NCBI RefSeq assembly: GCF_013184775.1
Contig: NZ_JAATVV010000002.1
Span: forward strand, 1 to 64,000
DNA length: 64,000 bases
DNA from: Martelella sp. HB161492
GTDB lineage: Bacteria; Pseudomonadota; Alphaproteobacteria; Rhizobiales; Rhizobiaceae
Direction of reading: 5' to 3'
Shown here: one piece after another, positions 25,377 to 48,609 of the stretch
Position numbering within the stretch: the stretch's first letter is position 1
Layout of the letters: every line of letters begins with the position of its first letter
Translations under genes and position numbers: made by a program
The notes under the pieces: model-generated
What the model was told of the DNA's origin: nothing
Database searches by the model: none
The model's input: the letters and a program-made list of their open reading frames with translations, nothing else

Positions 25377-25730
25377 ATGATCGCGATGCCGATCCGGATG
25401 CAAGATGATCCACCCGAAAAAGGGGGCAATCCGAGCCGCGGAACAGCGGTGATCGCGCGCACAAAGCCCAAGGCTAAAAAACCCAGCCTCTACCGGGTTC
25501 TCCTGTTGAACGATGACTACACGCCAATGGAATTCGTGGTTCACATTCTGGAGCGCTTTTTCCAGAAAGATCGCGAGGCGGCTACCCGCATCATGTTGAA
25601 CGTACACAATAATGGCGTCGGCGAATGCGGTGTTTATACCTATGAGGTGGCTGAGACCAAGGTCAGTCAGGTCATGGATTTTGCCCGCCAGCATCAGCAT
25701 CCATTGCAATGTGTCATGGAAAAGAAGTGA
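25377..25730 (+). CDS. clpS: ATP-dependent Clp protease adaptor ClpS
   Basis: 117 residues, with GGAG nine bases before the ATG. The conserved face [20 protein letters not shown] forms the N-degron pocket that binds proteins with destabilising N-terminal residues and delivers them to ClpA. The [10 protein letters not shown] linker and the C-terminal [19 protein letters not shown] are typical. It lies 10 bp before clpA, giving a conserved operon. Starts a few codons downstream (Met4, Met8) cannot be excluded. Confidence 0.93.
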
Positions 25731-36498: not shown

Positions 36499-36800
36499 TC
36501 TTGAGCAGTTCCTGTTCGCAGTCTTTGGTTATCGAGCAAGCTTCTTAGACCAAGACGAAACGGAATTGAAGCCGCAGCGCCAATCATTGAAAGCCAATGC
36601 AGCCGAATTGCGGTCAGATCGGCCGCAGACGGCAACCCTTTATTAACCATAACCCCGGGGAGCGCCACAACAGCCGAGGATGCAAGAGCTTTTTAAGGCT
36701 TCGCTGTCAAAAGAGAACTGTTCCGAACCAAGTTGAGTCGAATGAACGGGGTTTCACTCAACACAAGACGACCGATAGCAGGCGAGCGGGGAGAATCAGC

Positions 36801-39800
36801 ATGATAAAGCGCAAGAGAGCGAGCCAGACCTTGAAGGGGCTCTTTCTGTGTTCGTCAGCATTGTCGCTTTTGCTGCCTGCCCAGAGTTTTGCCGCCACTT
36901 TCGATTGGCTTGGCACCGATACATCCTGGTATAACGCTGATAACTGGTCGACGTCGGACACAACCACAAACACGTATCCGGGCTACGACGATACCGCTAA
37001 CATCAACGACACAAGCGTCTACCCGTCTCTTGCAACTGACGGCGGCGTCAATGTCGGAACGCTGGTGATAGGCACCACCGGCACGGGCTCGATGACATCG
37101 GTCGCCGCTCTTCAGACCCAGTCGATCACAATCGGCCAGGACACGGACAGCACCGGCACACTCTCGATTTCAACATCTGGCGGCTATTTCTCCAATACGG
37201 GCGCAATTTATGTCGGCGATGGAGGCACGGGAACGCTCAGCATCACCGATGATGCGGATGGCAATAGTCAGGGCCTTGTTATCGGCAACGCTTCGACAGG
37301 TTCGGGAACCGTAACGCTCAGCGGGAGCGGTTCGTCCCTCAACATTTACGGCTCGCTGAGTCAGGTTGGCCTTCGCGTCGGCAATTCGGGAACGGGTACG
37401 CTGACGGTTTCAGACGGCGCCTATCTCCTGACCAACGACACGACCATCGGCTTATTCTCCACCGGAAACGGCACCATGACGGTGACCGGCAGCGGCACGA
37501 CCTGGGAAGGGTATGGCGATCTCGAGATCGGTCGCGGCGGCACGGGAACACTGACGATCTCCGACGGCGCAGCCGTCATCAGCGACAATGTCAGCATCGG
37601 CCTTTTCAGCGACGGAACAGGAACGGCGACCGTCACGGGCAGCGGTTCGACCTGGACCGTCTATAACGACATTGTCCTCGGCGGTAATGTTGCTGGCACG
37701 GGAACCTCGGGCGACGGAACGCTTTCCGTCTTGGATGGCGCGATCATGTCTGCCACCAACGCCACGGTTGGCTCCGCAGAAGGGTCCACCGGCACAGTCA
37801 ATGTCGATGGTGCCGGATCGCAATGGGCGCTGCGCGGCACGCTTTCCGTCGGCGCTTCCGGCACGGGCGAGGTCGATATCAGCAATGGCGGCGCGGTAAC
37901 GGCAGATTCGGCAGTTATCGGCGATTCGACCACCGGAGACGGCTCCATTCAGCTCACCGACAGCGACAGCAGCCTGACAACCACCAATGCCATCACGGTC
38001 GCCAATGCCGGCACGGGGTCTGTGTCAGTCAGCGACGGGGCAACGCTTTCGACCAATGGCGCCGTCATCGGCGCGAGCGAAGGCGCCGATGGATCGGTTA
38101 CGGTTTCCGGAGACGGAGCAAGCTGGGCCAACAGTTCGACACTTGTCGTCGGCCAGTCCGGCACGGGATCGCTCACCGTCGAGAATGGCGCAACGGCGAC
38201 CAACACCACCACGACGATCGGTGCAGATGCCACGGGTGACGGCAGCGTGACCGTGACAGGATCCGGCTCGACCTGGACGGTCAATGGCGATCTCACAGTC
38301 GCAGACAGCGGCACAGGCTCGCTCTCGGTGGAGGATGGCGGCACAGTCACCAGCACCCAGACCGTGATCGGCTCTGCCAGCGGCTCAACGGGAAGCGTCA
38401 GTGTCAGCGGCGCGTCCAGCACATGGACAGTGACGGGCGGCATCACCGTCGGCGCCTCGGGCACCGGCAGCCTTACCGTCGCCGATGGCGCAACAGTCAC
38501 CGCTGACAGCCTCACCATCGCCTCTGAAAGCGGCTCGACCGGCTCGCTCAACATCGGCGCAGCGGATGGTGAGACCGCTGCGGCGGCGGGTACGCTCGAC
38601 ATTGACACCGTCAGTTTCGGCAGCGGCACGGGAACCCTGGTCTTCAATCTCACCGACAGCGACTATGTCTTCGACACGGTCATATCCGGCACGGGGACCA
38701 TTCTGGTTGAAAGCGGCACAACCATTCTCACCGCTGAAAACACCAATGACGGCACCACCTCGATTTACGATGGCGCCACGCTTCAGATCGGCAATGGCGG
38801 GACGACGGGCACACTTGGCGGTAACGTGACGATCGAAGACGGCGGCACACTGGCCTTCAACCGCTCCGACACCACCAGTTTCGCCGGCATCATTTCCGGC
38901 GATGGTACCCTGGTCAAGGACGGCGCGGGCACGCTGTCACTGACAGCCGACAGCAGCTTTTCCGGCACGACCGATGTCGTCAGCGGCACGCTTCTGGTGG
39001 ATGGCTCGCTCGCCGCATCGACCTTCAGCGTGGGCTCCGGGGCTACGCTTGGCGGCTCGGGCACGGTTGGCGATGTCGCGGTTGCAACCGGCGGCACCTT
39101 CCAGTCCGGCGATGAAAACGGTGCCATCAGCGTTGATGGCGACCTGACCTTTTCGACCGGCGCCACCTATGTCGCCTATATCGCCGATGGCTCCGACACC
39201 GCGACGGTCAGCGGCGATGTCAGCTTCGACAGCACCGAAGTCGCCGTCACCTTCGCGCCCGGCGGCACGCTGAAGCAGAGCTATACGCTGCTTGAGGCCG
39301 GCAGCATCTCCGGTGACTACAGCGCAACGGTCAGCAACCTGCCGAGCCATTTCAAGGGAACGGTCACGGATGACGGCAGCAATCTTGATTTCTCCCTGGT
39401 TTATGTCGGCGGTGACTACAGTTTCTCCACGCTCGGCCAGGGCGTGAACACCGCACTCGTCAATGCATTCAATGACGGAAATTCACTGTCGGGAGCACTG
39501 TCTGCGGCAATGCTTCTTGATGGCAGCGACTACGAAAATGCCATGACCACGCTCGGTGGCGAGCTCGGTGTCAATGCCACCACGACTGCCAGCTACGCCA
39601 TGCAGGGCTTCCTGAGCCGGGCAACCAATCCCTCCCGGATGACGAATGCCTGGCGGCCGATCTCGGAAAAATCCGGCGACAGCAGTGATGCGCTGCCGAC
39701 CGTTGCAGCCGGCTACTGGACAACCCAAACCCGGGCGCAGCCGCAATGGGATTGGGCCTATGCCGGCCGCGGATCGGTTTACCGGGATTTCGCCCCCAGC

Positions 39801-40643
39801 CATTCGGGCTGGTTCGAATACAGCCATCAGGCAAGCAGCATCAGCGGCGACAGCCAGGCAGGCAATTCGTCTGCCGATATCAGCGGCAATGTGTTCGAAG
39901 GCGGCTTCATGGCCTCGCTCGATGCCGGCAGCCAGATCGGCGTGGTGATTGGCGGCGGCAACAGCCGCTACGACCAGAATGATCAGGATGGCTATGCCAA
40001 CGACACCAGCTTCCACGCAGCGCTCGTTGCGATGGGACAGACGGAAGAGGGCGCCTATGGCACGGCGGCACTTGGCGTCGGCGTTGACGGCGTCGACACC
40101 AATCGCACTGTCTCGCTCAACGGCGTCACGGACAAGCTGCGCGGCAGCTACAACGCCACCAGCGTCGGCGGCCGGGCGGAAGGCGGTTTCCGCATTGCCG
40201 CAGACGACTTTGCCGTGATCCCCTTCGCCGCCGCCAGCATCGCCTATACCAGCGCGCCCGGCTATCATGAAAAAGTCTCCTCCGGCACGGGCACGTCGGC
40301 GCTTGCCTATGGCGGCAGCGACATCCTGCGCGGCACGGTCGAAGCAGGCATCGGCTTCGACACCGCCGCCGGACGCGTCCCGCGCAGTTTCTCGATCAAT
40401 GGCCGCGCCTCTTACCTTTATCGCTATGGCAATGCCAGTGGCGCGACCGCAAGCTTTATTGCCCTGCCGGGCTACGGCTTCACGATCGCCAGCAACGCCC
40501 CCACGGGCAGTGCCGTCGCAGCCAATCTCGGTGCAACGGTGCGAATCTCGACCCAGACGGACATTTCCTTCACCGCCTATGGCGAGTGGTCGCCGGACTA
40601 TGCGACGCTGATCGCCTCGGCCAAGCTGCGCTACATCTGGTAA
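36801..40643 (+). CDS. Autotransporter with repeat-rich passenger (type Va)
   Basis: 1280 residues from the ATG at 36801, with GGGGAGA upstream; an in-frame extension begins at 36597 but would put 68 residues before the signal. The signal peptide ends at SFA-ATF. The passenger (about 30-960) contains at least seven units of about 48 residues with the pattern IG-GTGTLTISDGA-IG-GTGTVTGSGSTW, giving a right-handed beta-helix. Later come autotransporter-associated beta-strand motifs (TLVKDGAGTLSLTADSSFSGTTDV). The C-terminal 310 residues are the beta-barrel, starting near GYWTTQTRAQPQWDWAYAG and ending in RYIW, the aromatic end used by the Bam complex. It probably lies on the cell surface as an adhesin. 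Confidence 0.93.
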   Translation: MIKRKRASQTLKGLFLCSSALSLLLPAQSFAATFDWLGTDTSWYNADNWSTSDTTTNTYPGYDDTANINDTSVYPSLATDGGVNVGTLVIGTTGTGSMTSVAALQTQSITIGQDTDSTGTLSISTSGGYFSNTGAIYVGDGGTGTLSITDDADGNSQGLVIGNASTGSGTVTLSGSGSSLNIYGSLSQVGLRVGNSGTGTLTVSDGAYLLTNDTTIGLFSTGNGTMTVTGSGTTWEGYGDLEIGRGGTGTLTISDGAAVISDNVSIGLFSDGTGTATVTGSGSTWTVYNDIVLGGNVAGTGTSGDGTLSVLDGAIMSATNATVGSAEGSTGTVNVDGAGSQWALRGTLSVGASGTGEVDISNGGAVTADSAVIGDSTTGDGSIQLTDSDSSLTTTNAITVANAGTGSVSVSDGATLSTNGAVIGASEGADGSVTVSGDGASWANSSTLVVGQSGTGSLTVENGATATNTTTTIGADATGDGSVTVTGSGSTWTVNGDLTVADSGTGSLSVEDGGTVTSTQTVIGSASGSTGSVSVSGASSTWTVTGGITVGASGTGSLTVADGATVTADSLTIASESGSTGSLNIGAADGETAAAAGTLDIDTVSFGSGTGTLVFNLTDSDYVFDTVISGTGTILVESGTTILTAENTNDGTTSIYDGATLQIGNGGTTGTLGGNVTIEDGGTLAFNRSDTTSFAGIISGDGTLVKDGAGTLSLTADSSFSGTTDVVSGTLLVDGSLAASTFSVGSGATLGGSGTVGDVAVATGGTFQSGDENGAISVDGDLTFSTGATYVAYIADGSDTATVSGDVSFDSTEVAVTFAPGGTLKQSYTLLEAGSISGDYSATVSNLPSHFKGTVTDDGSNLDFSLVYVGGDYSFSTLGQGVNTALVNAFNDGNSLSGALSAAMLLDGSDYENAMTTLGGELGVNATTTASYAMQGFLSRATNPSRMTNAWRPISEKSGDSSDALPTVAAGYWTTQTRAQPQWDWAYAGRGSVYRDFAPSHSGWFEYSHQASSISGDSQAGNSSADISGNVFEGGFMASLDAGSQIGVVIGGGNSRYDQNDQDGYANDTSFHAALVAMGQTEEGAYGTAALGVGVDGVDTNRTVSLNGVTDKLRGSYNATSVGGRAEGGFRIAADDFAVIPFAAASIAYTSAPGYHEKVSSGTGTSALAYGGSDILRGTVEAGIGFDTAAGRVPRSFSINGRASYLYRYGNASGATASFIALPGYGFTIASNAPTGSAVAANLGATVRISTQTDISFTAYGEWSPDYATLIASAKLRYIW

Positions 40644-41877: not shown

Positions 41878-42717
41878 ATGACCAATTCTACCGTAATTGC
41901 AGGCAGCGGCGAAAAGGCCGTGGCCTTTTCCAGCAGCGCACCGCTTTCGCTGATTGCCGGGCCGTGCCAGATGGAAAGCCGCGACCATGCTTTCATGATG
42001 GCTGGCAAGCTTACCGAAATTTGCGCCGAAGCGGGCATCGGTCTGGTCTACAAATCCTCCTTCGACAAGGCCAACCGCACCTCACTCGGGGCAGCGCGCG
42101 GCATCGGCCTCGACAAGGCGCTCGAGATCTTTGCCGATCTCAAGAAGGAATTCGGCTTTCCGGTTCTCACCGACATTCACACGGAAGAGCAATGCGCCGA
42201 AGTCGCCCCCGTTGTCGACGTGCTGCAGATCCCGGCCTTTCTTTCGCGTCAGACCGACCTGCTGATTGCCGCCGCCAGGACCGGCCGAGTCATCAACGTC
42301 AAGAAGGGCCAGTTCCTGGCGCCCTGGGACATGAAGAACGTGCTCGCCAAGATCGTTGACAGCGGCAATCCCAATGTTCTGCTCTGTGAGCGCGGTGCAT
42401 CCTTCGGCTACAATACGCTGGTCTCCGACATGCGCTCGCTACCGATCATGGCCGCAACCGGTGCGCCGGTGATCTTCGACGCCACCCATTCCGTGCAGCA
42501 GCCGGGCGGGCAGGGCGGCTCGACCGGCGGTCAGCGCGAATTCGTTGAAACCCTTGCACGCGCGGCTGTTGCCGTCGGCGTTGCGGGTGTTTTCATCGAG
42601 ACACATGAAGATCCGGACAATGCGCCTTCAGACGGTCCGAACATGGTTCCCCTTGCTGAAATGCCACGCCTGATTGCCAAGCTTATGGCTTTTGACGCGC
42701 TGGCAAAGGCAGGGTAA
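41878..42717 (+). CDS. kdsA: 3-deoxy-8-phosphooctulonate synthase
   Basis: 279 residues. KdsA condenses phosphoenolpyruvate with arabinose 5-phosphate to give KDO 8-phosphate for lipopolysaccharide. Signatures are [55 protein letters not shown] and [16 protein letters not shown] has the non-metal type Asn/Cys question unresolved: the residue after GP is Cys, as in metal-dependent forms. It precedes eno, the source of PEP, on the same strand. Confidence 0.96.
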
Positions 42718-42827
42718 TGTCACGCATGCATGCAAAGGTTCCACCAGCGTTTTTTCGCATTCAATCGATCGAAATTTTTCAATCGTCATAGTACTGGCGG
42801 AGAAACTGCATTATGCGTTTTGTCGCA

Positions 42828-42889
42828 GTGAGCCGGGCCGACGGCCCGCATCTGCGGGAAATGCTCCCGCCGCCTCCCAAGCGGCTCAC
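42828..42889 (+). ncRNA. Candidate structured RNA element in the eno leader
   Basis: GTGAGCCG (42828-42835) pairs perfectly with CGGCTCAC (42882-42889). Inside are two smaller hairpins: GGCC-GAC-GGCC (42836-42846) and GCGGGA-AATGC-TCCCGC (42854-42870). The result is a three-way-junction-like fold about 35 bases before the enolase start codon. No known riboswitch was recognised. An interspersed repeat or a kdsA terminator is possible, but no T-run follows. Confidence 0.5.
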
Positions 42890-42918
42890 ATTGGTTTAAA
42901 AGCAAAGTCGACAGGTAA

Positions 42919-44199
<1,281 letters not shown>

Positions 44200-44824: not shown

Positions 44825-45856
44825 ATGGCGCCCCAGAATTCAGCGTCCGGCACATCTCGTAAATCATCCAAAAAAGACAATGGCGCACCGATTGTGGATT
44901 TCGACCGCGATCAGGAGCTTCACGCCTACCGCGAAATGCTGCTGATCCGGCGTTTCGAGGAAAAGGCCGGCCAGCTTTACGGTATGGGTTTCATCGGTGG
45001 TTTCTGCCACCTTTACATCGGCCAGGAAGCCGTTGTCGTCGGCATGCAGATGTCTCTGAAGGACGGCGACCAGATCATCACCAGCTATCGTGACCATGGC
45101 CACATGCTCGCCACCGGCATGAATGCCCGCGGTGTCATGGCTGAGCTCACCGGCCGCCGCTCGGGTTATTCCAAGGGCAAGGGCGGTTCGATGCACATGT
45201 TCTCCAAGGAAAAGAATTTCTATGGCGGACACGGCATCGTCGGTGCCCAGGTTCCGATCGGAACCGGTCTCGCCTTCGCCAACAACTACCGCGGCAACGA
45301 CAATGTTTCGGTCGTCTATTTCGGTGACGGTGCATCCAACCAGGGCCAGGTCTATGAAAGCTACAACATGGCCAAGATCTGGGACCTGCCGGTCATCTAT
45401 GTGATCGAAAACAACCGCTATGCCATGGGCACGTCGGTTGCGCGCTCCTCGGCGCTGGGTGATTTCTCGAAGCGCGGCTCGTCCTTCAACATTCCCGGTC
45501 TTGCCGTGGATGGCATGGATGTGCGCGCCGTCAAGGCCGCCGCTGACGAGGCGGAAGCCCATTGCCGCGCCGGCAAGGGGCCGATCATCCTTGAAATGAA
45601 CACCTATCGTTACCGCGGTCACTCGATGTCCGACCCGGCGAAGTATCGCAGCAAGGACGAAGTGCAGAAGATGCGCTCCGAGCATGACCCGATCGAACAG
45701 GTCAAGGCCCGCCTTCTCGACAAGGAATGGGCGAGCGAAGACGAACTCAAGAATATCGACAAGGACGTTCGCGGTATCGTCGCTGACGCTGCCGATTTCG
45801 CCCAGACCGATCCCGAGCCCGATGTATCCGAGCTCTACACCGATATTCTGCGTTAA
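44825..45856 (+). CDS. pdhA: Pyruvate dehydrogenase E1 component, alpha subunit
   Basis: 343 residues from the ATG at 44825. E1 decarboxylates pyruvate with thiamine diphosphate and acetylates the lipoyl group of E2. The TPP-binding segment is [31 protein letters not shown] (GDG...NN motif), and the phosphorylation-loop region [14 protein letters not shown] is conserved. A 30-residue Ser/Lys-rich N-terminal extension precedes the fold. It is first in pdhA-pdhB-pdhC-SGNH-DUF465-lpdA. Confidence 0.97.
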
Positions 45857-45876
45857 GACGGGGAGGGACAAGAACA

Positions 45877-47253
45877 ATGCCCACCAATATCCTTATGCCT
45901 GCGCTCTCTCCGACGATGGAAGAGGGCAACCTTTCCAAATGGCTCAAGAAGGAAGGCGACAGCGTTTCCTCCGGTGACGTGATTGCTGAGATCGAAACCG
46001 ACAAGGCCACGATGGAAGTTGAAGCCGTTGACGAAGGCGTTATCGGCAAGATCCTGATTGCCGAAGGCACTGAAGGCGTGAAGGTGAATACACCGATCGC
46101 CATTCTGCTCGAAGAAGGCGAAAGCGCTGACGACATTTCGGCCGCTGCCGCCGCACCGGCTCCCGAAGCGGCAGCACCTGCCGCAGCTCCCGCAGCAGCG
46201 CCTGCACCGGTTCCGGCCCAGCCGATCGCCGTGGAAGTTGCTTCCGACCCCGATATTCCCGCTGGCACCGAAATGGTCAACATGACCGTTCGTGAAGCGC
46301 TGCGCGACGCCATGGCCGAAGAAATGCGCGCCAACCCGGACGTTTTCGTCATGGGTGAAGAAGTCGCTGAATATCAGGGCGCCTACAAGGTAACCCAGGG
46401 CCTGCTGCAGGAATTCGGCGCCAAGCGCGTCGTCGACACGCCGATCACCGAACATGGCTTTGCCGGTATCGCCGTCGGTGCTGCCCTTGGCGGCCTGCGC
46501 CCGATCGTCGAGTTCATGACCTTCAACTTCGCCATGCAGGCGATTGACCAGATCGTCAACTCCGCGGCCAAGACCCATTACATGTCCGGCGGCCAGATGG
46601 AATCGCCGATCGTATTCCGTGGTCCGAATGGTGCCGCTGCCCGCGTTGCAGCCCAGCATTCCCAGTGCTACGCCGCTTGGTACAGCCACATTCCGGGCCT
46701 CAAGGTCGTCATGCCCTACACGGCTGCCGATGCCAAGGGCCTGCTGAAGGCTGCGATCCGCGATCCGAACCCGATCATCTTCCTGGAAAACGAAATCCTT
46801 TACGGTCACAAGTTCGATGTGCCGAAGCTCGATGATTTCGTCCTGCCGATCGGCAAGGCCCGCATCCACAAGCCGGGTAAGGATGTCACGATGGTATCCT
46901 TCGGCATAGGCATGACCTACGCCATTGAAGCAACTGAAAAGCTTGCTGAAATGGGTATCGACGTCGAGCTGATCGATCTGCGCACCATCCGTCCGATGGA
47001 TCTGCCGGCGATCATCGAATCGGTCAAGAAGACCGGTCGCCTGGTCACCGTCGAAGAAGGCTTCCCGCAGTCTTCCGTCGGAACCGAAATCGCCACGCGC
47101 GTCATGCAGCAGGCCTTCGACTATCTCGATGCGCCGATCCTGACGATTGCCGGCAAGGACGTTCCGATGCCCTACGCCGCGAACCTCGAAAAGCTGGCCC
47201 TGCCCAACGTCGGTGAAGTCATCGATGCGGTCAAGGCTGTCTGCTACAAGTAA
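45877..47253 (+). CDS. pdhB: Pyruvate dehydrogenase E1 component, beta subunit, with lipoyl domain
   Basis: 458 residues. Residues 1-78 form a lipoyl domain (lysine in [13 protein letters not shown]) joined by an Ala/Pro-rich linker (90-120) to the E1-beta fold ([28 protein letters not shown]). Later come [30 protein letters not shown] and the C-terminal [10 protein letters not shown]1-beta fused to a lipoyl domain is known in alphaproteobacteria and Zymomonas and gives an extra acetyl carrier; most bacteria lack it. The linker and lipoyl domain resemble those of PdhC directly downstream, which suggests duplication. Confidence 0.96.
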
Positions 47254-47265
47254 GGGAGGCGTTCC

Positions 47266-48609
47266 ATGCCGATCAAGATCACGATGCCGGCGCTTTCGCC
47301 GACCATGGAAGAGGGCAATCTGGCCAAGTGGCTTGTCAAGGAAGGCGACACCGTCGCTTCCGGCGATGTGATTGCCGAGATCGAAACCGACAAGGCAACG
47401 ATGGAAGTCGAAGCCGTCGATGAGGGCACGGTTGCCAAGATCGTCGTTCCTGCCGGAACCGAAGGCGTCAAGGTGAATGCCCTGATCGCCATCCTCGCCG
47501 GTGAAGGTGAAGACGTCGCGGCCGCAGCGGCTGCTGGCAGCGATGACGCGGCTGCGCCAGCTGCTCAGGAAAAGCCGGCTGCCGAAGCATCGAAGGCCGC
47601 AACGCCTTCGGCCGACACGCCGGTTCCGCAGCCGGCCGCTCCGGCTGCACCGGCAACGGCTTCGGGCGAACGTGTCTTTGCCTCGCCGCTGGCGCGCCGT
47701 CTGGCCAAGGAAGCCGGTCTCGACCTCGCAGCAGTTGCCGGTTCCGGCCCGCATGGCCGGATCATCAAGTCCGACATCGAGAAAGCCAAGGCCGGTGGCG
47801 CCGCCAAGCCCGCCGCTGCCGCAGCACCGGTCGCCGAAGCTGCCGCGCCGGCACCCGCCGCTGCCAAGCCCGCCTCCGATGATGCGGTTCTCAAGCTGTT
47901 CGAGGAAGGTTCCTACGAGCTGGTCCCGCATGACAACATGCGCAAGACGATTGCCAAGCGGCTGCAGGAATCGAAGCAGACCATCCCGCATTTCTACGTC
48001 TCGATCGATTGCGAGCTCGATGCGCTGCTGGCGCTGCGCGGCCAGCTGAACAAGGCCGCGCCGATGAAGGGCGAGAAGCCGGCGTACAAGCTTTCCGTCA
48101 ATGACATGGTCATCAAGGCCATGGCACTGGCGCTGCGCGATGTTCCGGATGCCAACGTCTCCTGGACCGACAATAACATGGTCGTGCACAACCACGTCGA
48201 TGTTGGAGTCGCCGTCTCGATCCCCGGTGGCCTGATCACCCCGATCATCCGCAAGGCCGAGGAAAAGCCGCTGTCGGTCATCTCCAACGAGATGAAGGAC
48301 ATGGGCCGTCGTGCCAAGGAAAAGAAGCTGAAGCCCGCCGAATATCAGGGCGGTACAACGGCTGTTTCCAACATGGGCATGATGGGTGTGAAGGACTTTG
48401 CCGCCGTGGTGAACCCGCCGCATGCATCGATCCTTGCGGTTGGCGCAGGCGAGAAGCGGGCCGTCGTCAAGAATGACGAACTGACCATCGCCACGGTCAT
48501 GACTGTCACGCTGTCCACCGATCATCGTTGCGTCGATGGCGCTCTTGCCGCCCAGGTTCTGGGTGCCTTCAAGGGCTACATCGAAAGCCCGATGTCGATG
48601 CTGGTCTGA
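47266..48609 (+). CDS. pdhC: Dihydrolipoamide acetyltransferase, E2 of pyruvate dehydrogenase
   Basis: 447 residues. Order: lipoyl domain (1-78, Lys in [13 protein letters not shown]), Ala/Pro linker, peripheral-subunit-binding domain ([35 protein letters not shown], about 140-175), a second linker and the catalytic domain (about 215-447). The catalytic motif [12 protein letters not shown] lies near the C-terminus. E2 forms the core of the complex and passes the acetyl group to coenzyme A. It lies 12 bp after pdhB, and the N-terminal 60 residues closely match PdhB. Confidence 0.97.

Follow-up and report, generated by a model that had tools for sequence, protein, structure and literature searches.

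A candidate structured leader ahead of the enolase gene in Martelella

The window analyzed here, a stretch of 64,000 nucleotides from Martelella sp. HB161492 (contig NZ_JAATVV010000002.1, positions 1 to 64,000), contains between a kdsA-like gene and eno a segment that an initial annotation described as a branched RNA-like structure. This locus raises the question of whether that segment belongs to a functional leader of the enolase mRNA and, if it does, which of its parts have been kept during evolution. The features on which the analysis relies are the following.

41878 to 42717, forward strand: kdsA-like gene, an open reading frame of the DAHP synthetase I family (Pfam PF00793, E 1.1e-68), which we take to be kdsA, following the initial annotation
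42718 to 42924, forward strand: kdsA-eno spacer of 207 bp, 99.0% identical to M. alba
42771 to 42792, forward strand: conserved promoter-like block ending in CGTCATAGT, which is present in 13 of 13 leaders; putative promoter
42807 to 42817, forward strand: P1, TGCATTATGCG, a small hairpin or a second promoter element (3-pair helix, 94.9% of cells paired)
42828 to 42889, forward strand: reported branched element with outer stem 42828-42835/42882-42889 (folding z -2.65)
42834 to 42848, forward strand: inner hairpin CGGGCC-GAC-GGCCCG of the minimum-energy fold
42854 to 42870, forward strand: inner hairpin GCGGGA-AATGC-TCCCGC of the minimum-energy fold, also compared with M. alba
42869 to 42885, forward strand: P3, GCCGC-CTCCCAA-GCGGC, counterpart of the third hairpin of the relatives (core helix with 84.6% of cells paired in 13 leaders)
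42876 to 42881, forward strand: CCCAAG within P3
42907 to 42932, forward strand: start-site hairpin GTCG.CA.GT......AC.TG.CGAC over the ribosome-binding site and the AUG, from folding alone and from pairing in 13 leaders
42925 to 44199, forward strand: eno, enolase (Pfam PF00113 and PF03952)

Conservation and distribution of the kdsA-eno spacer

Among the genomes compared, the closest is that of M. alba, whose enolase is 98% identical to that of the window. Only two of the 207 positions of the kdsA-eno spacer differ between them (42750 and 42859), and the spacer ranks first among the 25 spacers of the aligned window, the next one being 93.9% identical; genes for this ranking were called crudely, so that clpS went uncalled and became part of one spacer, whose true portion is 71.6% identical. 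By comparison, third positions of kdsA are 73.6% identical (26.4% differ) and those of eno 84.0% identical (16.0% differ), and the spacer after eno shows 16 differences in 131 positions. The final 118 bases of kdsA contain 14 differences, and the first 126 of eno contain four. This shift of divergence at the gene borders argues for selection and against a recombined tract, and indicates that the kdsA-eno spacer is under selection in the clade of the window. The single change inside the 62 bases of the element (42859) turns an A-U pair into G-U in the GCGGGA/TCCCGC hairpin. Since conservation also covers the 53 bases upstream of the promoter-like block (42718-42770, one mismatch), a function at the DNA level contributes as well. 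Among the 45 Martelella pairs with an eno third-position divergence of at most 0.30 (out of 78), the leader diverged more than eno third positions in 33 and less in 12, all of the latter inside close clades.

Other parts of the window are also similar to M. alba. A 207-base stretch from 25248, reaching into a gene that we take to be clpS (25377-25730), is at least 99% identical, although overall identity in the spacer preceding clpS is 71.6%. Two further 207-base stretches (45749-45955 and 47242-47448) are at least 99% identical and lie in and around genes after eno that presumably encode pyruvate dehydrogenase subunits. Separately, the window contains at 36597-40643 an open reading frame of 1348 residues with repeated motifs, which we assume to resemble an autotransporter-type surface protein.

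A query of 241 bases retrieved the region from 13 of 61 genomes, namely all 13 Martelella and none of the 48 others. Likewise, a covariance model of the 13 leaders gave one strong match (E 1e-20 or better) in each of the 13 Martelella genomes from which it had been built, and its search of 138 other relatives, with filters that lose weak matches, returned three matches with E 0.08-0.09 and nothing better. The CGTCATAGT motif lies 128-137 bases before the ATG in all 13 leaders. A pattern made by eye for a promoter-like CATTGTAATTT block was applied to 106 other eno loci, a set in which M. alba recurs and some species are present twice. It recognised the block in 28 loci, and in 23 of these 28 the block lies 68-79 bases before the ATG. 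The long eno leader thus looks like a Martelella feature. A sigma-70 scan of the window reported no site at CGTCATAGT.

Two observations concern enolase loci more generally. Upstream of eno in four sister species (L018, L019, L020, and L022) we found TTCATTCG-N12-CGAATGAA, an 8-bp inverted repeat around CATAGT and a possible operator. In addition, the genome to which the window belongs has a second, divergent enolase gene (L028) at G000:C10:1838-3091, with a protein 55% identical; no eno-like leader was detected in the first 270 bases around its start.

Folding and conservation of the branched element

The reported element is confirmed in the sequence. The segments GTGAGCCG (42828-42835) and CGGCTCAC (42882-42889) are perfect inverted repeats of 8 bp, and the element ends 35 bases before the eno start at 42925, both as originally described. 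The 62-mer has a predicted folding energy of -31.2 kcal/mol, as compared with a mean of -22.98 for its shuffled versions (z -2.65), and 4 of 200 shuffles do equally well. In its minimum-energy fold, a 6-bp outer stem (GTGAGC/GCTCAC) encloses three hairpins of 6 bp (CGGGCC/GGCCCG), 6 bp (GCGGGA/TCCCGC), and 3 bp (CGC/GCG). The annotated architecture, an 8-bp stem enclosing two hairpins, holds as an inverted repeat but not as the best fold: it reaches -28.7, which is 2.5 kcal/mol weaker, and the 8-bp stem competes with P3. The 75-nt piece of the leader containing the element gave a z of -1.76 and the whole 129-nt leader -0.87, while across the 13 Martelella leaders whole-leader values ranged from -1.22 to +1.64, no better than shuffles. 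With whole-leader values this near chance, folding energy alone is weak evidence. The excess of the element over chance is modest and its conservation is strong.

In the 13-leader alignment, the 8-bp outer stem is complete in two leaders, those of the window strain and M. alba, whose stems are identical; in the other 11, between one and six of the eight pairs form. The initial annotation had proposed covariation in this stem as its check, and the outcome was divided. On the one hand, 51.5% of its cells are paired, inside the range of slid versions of the stem (39.4-58.6%). On the other hand, none of 500 shuffles attain this share of paired cells, and the covariation score (0.205, against at most 0.155 in six slid versions, and reached by 11 of 500 shuffles) and the number of double-changed cells (nine, against at most seven in the slid versions, and reached by 1 of 500 shuffles) exceed all slid versions and most shuffles; these controls leave relatedness in, two of the aligned leaders supplied the stem itself, and the alignment is uncertain in its middle part. 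Covariation in the outer stem appears to be largely, if not cleanly, absent, with a signal that is weak and mixed. We judge the complete stem to be private to the window/M. alba clade; elsewhere the alignment hints only weakly, if at all, at pairing. These comparisons do not support the view that the outer stem is what the leader mainly conserves.

The absence of a known riboswitch class was borne out, as no Rfam match reached the gathering score in the window; a search of 42600-43100 gave only a snoRNA match with E 2.1 on the other strand. An interspersed palindromic repeat was rejected, since the element is single-copy in its genome by both searches made: the next best genome match of a 91-base query had E 0.034 over 28 bases, and a 20-mer with three mismatches allowed found three other sites against six for a control. 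A transcription attenuator was also rejected, with no terminator-like site in 42600-43000 of the window.

A loop hairpin and a start-site hairpin

Leader positions are numbered here from the base after CATAGT. At +49 to +51, CCCAAG is present in nine of the 13 leaders and CTGAAG in two, and the leaders of the window and M. alba have CCCAAG at +84. The motif is enclosed by a hairpin in each of the remaining 11 species, with shuffled-arm p values from 0.002 to 0.208 that fall below 0.05 in 8 of 11. A scan of arm-to-arm pairing over seven representatives of the non-window clades peaked at the motif (mean z -2.50, with a negative value in every one of the seven), as compared with -1.44 at the adjacent offset and -0.77 at the next best place elsewhere; the corresponding Stouffer value is -6.6 and assumes independent clades, which is only roughly true. 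At the nominal motif place the window leader showed no peak (z +1.3), and the mean with the window included was -2.03. No column covariation was found in the five alignable loop hairpins, and the 13-leader consensus contains one double-changed pair, not beyond shuffles (65 and 43 of 500).

The third hairpin (core CGC/GCG) has 84.6% of its cells paired in the 13 leaders. In the window this hairpin is P3, GCCGC-CTCCCAA-GCGGC, as compared with ACCGC-N6-GCGGT in the relatives L017 and L025, a full-stem homology read by hand. The CCCAAG of the window was rejected as the counterpart of the relatives' loop, as the alignment puts it in the next hairpin; rows of the window clade treated as loop counterparts gave, with a longer flank, p values of 0.016 and 0.100. 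The chance expectation of a hexamer of this type in the window leader is 0.05, and its presence in the loop of the next hairpin may be chance. Pseudoknot partners of CCCAAG (CTTGG/TTGGG) were searched for in the leader and the first 240 bases of eno, and found in two of 13, at different places, with none in common.

A 34-nt model of the loop hairpin from five species was searched against the 13 Martelella genomes, where 20 rows reached E 2 or better. Five of these are the source eno leaders (E 7e-12 to 1e-8), whereas E values for the remaining 15 range from 0.065 to 1.84. Among these weak rows, three are orthologous places, and the one with its frames read falls inside a coding frame, presumably recN. 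No regulon for the loop hairpin was detected with this model in the 13 genomes; since it did not retrieve the eno leaders of the eight remaining species, loops carried by other stems may exist.

When folded alone, the start-site hairpin forms in all 13 leaders, three of which show small variations. Its energy is -4.4 to -5.9 kcal/mol in 12 leaders (-5.9 in the window) and -2.0 in one that has an inserted base. It is present in nine of 13 full-leader folds. Although 98.1% of its cells are paired in the 13 leaders, the sequence is nearly invariant, so paired cells do not prove pairing. Codons 2 and 3 of eno (ACG and ACA) are invariant in all 13, whereas only 35 of the 192 four-fold sites of eno are. 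A search of the 13 genomes with the start-site pattern found 12 places in 11 genomes, ten of these places being at eno; in the form used, the pattern is unable to match the window/M. alba pair or the eno leader of G008. We estimate the two places away from eno to be about the chance level.

Readings of the leader

In our preferred reading, which we consider about as likely to be right as wrong, the element is part of a structured eno 5' leader of ~100-130 nt that sets enolase output, occurs once per genome and, among the genomes searched, is confined to Martelella. The proposal of a functional leader is partly supported, as regards selection and RNA-like character (spacer conservation and the relatives' loop hairpin) but not as regards metabolite sensing. 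Transcription would start upstream of the hairpins, and the weak start-site hairpin would limit ribosome access. The upstream hairpins may modulate access to the start site or mRNA decay, and a trans-acting protein or small RNA could read the conserved loop. In the two-species clade of the window, the upstream module would have been rebuilt as a GC-rich branched fold, with CCCAAG in the loop of the next hairpin.

The foremost alternative holds that the spacer is mainly promoter or operator DNA, with transcription factors or polymerase explaining the conserved blocks and the hairpins incidental to a GC-rich sequence. The near-identity with M. alba over 42718-42770 (one mismatch in 53), the invariant CGTCATAGT in 13 of 13 leaders, and leader folding energies near chance are consistent with it. 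However, the loop hairpin retains both its position and its loop although the letters of its stem vary from clade to clade, and conservation at the start site extends into eno codons 2-3; both point to RNA. We regard this alternative as a serious possibility, if not a probable one.

Processing by RNase III or RNase E, or an mRNA-stability element, is a further alternative, in which cleavage of an upstream hairpin would raise translation by analogy with E. coli eno. There, RNase III cuts the eno 5' UTR, which is under RNase III/RNase G control, and this cleavage has been proposed to take away a hairpin that precedes the ribosome-binding site and so to raise Eno synthesis (PMC6872547). The likeness to Martelella consists of the same gene and a hairpin upstream of the ribosome-binding site, with post-transcriptional control proposed in E. 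coli; it is a precedent by analogy, homology between the two leaders is not claimed, and links to RNases, antisense RNA, and oxygen belong to the E. coli system. The window too has a stable cluster of hairpins upstream of its ribosome-binding site. Its stems are short (3-8 bp), whereas RNase III usually prefers a longer duplex, and we consider such processing unlikely here.

The position of the element, which precedes eno and adjoins a gene whose product uses PEP, suggested a riboswitch that responds to PEP, 2-phosphoglycerate, or another glycolytic intermediate. This seems very improbable: no Rfam class was matched, no terminator was found in the window, no second copy, other locus, or regulon was detected, no relative was found outside the genus among the genomes searched, the window-type fold occurs in only two species, and the middle of the leader is variable. 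Least credible of all is a translated leader peptide coupled to eno, which was rejected: an 84-codon frame of the window (42674-42928) terminates in the ATGA of eno and 43-codon ATG-started frames terminate at this ATGA in four relatives, but the upstream frame is not kept across species, being shortened to 10, 16, or 27 codons in three of them, and leader length modulo 3 is 0, 1, or 2.

Returning to the preferred reading of a structured leader, a more specific form of it would be a genus-specific post-transcriptional switch, in which a trans-acting protein or small RNA reads the CCCAAG loop and controls the opening of the start-site hairpin, and the clade of the window has shifted the loop to the next hairpin and rebuilt the rest as a branched fold. 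We put this forward speculatively, as a long shot. Two known kinds of leader invite comparison. Corbino et al. in 2005 reportedly found structured leader motifs by comparing alphaproteobacteria; the window differs in having no Rfam match, and the Martelella leader in being confined to one genus among the genomes searched. RNA thermometers (ROSE-like, FourU) place an imperfect hairpin over the ribosome-binding site and the AUG. The Martelella eno leader may resemble them in its predicted weak hairpin over the same sites, but it has no Rfam match and eno is not a heat-shock gene. No paper on the eno leader of Martelella or Rhizobiaceae was found among the matches listed from open-licence texts, and 'eno' does not occur as a whole word in the main text of PMC3616915.

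Judged from comparative sequence analysis, the eno leader is a new, genus-restricted candidate for a structured cis-acting mRNA leader. It also offers a lesson, in that a stem which stands out in a single genome is not necessarily what the leader has conserved. If real, it would be a compact example of a leader that retains a loop motif even though the stems and, in one clade, the whole architecture have been replaced, and it would add post-transcriptional control of enolase in an alphaproteobacterium.
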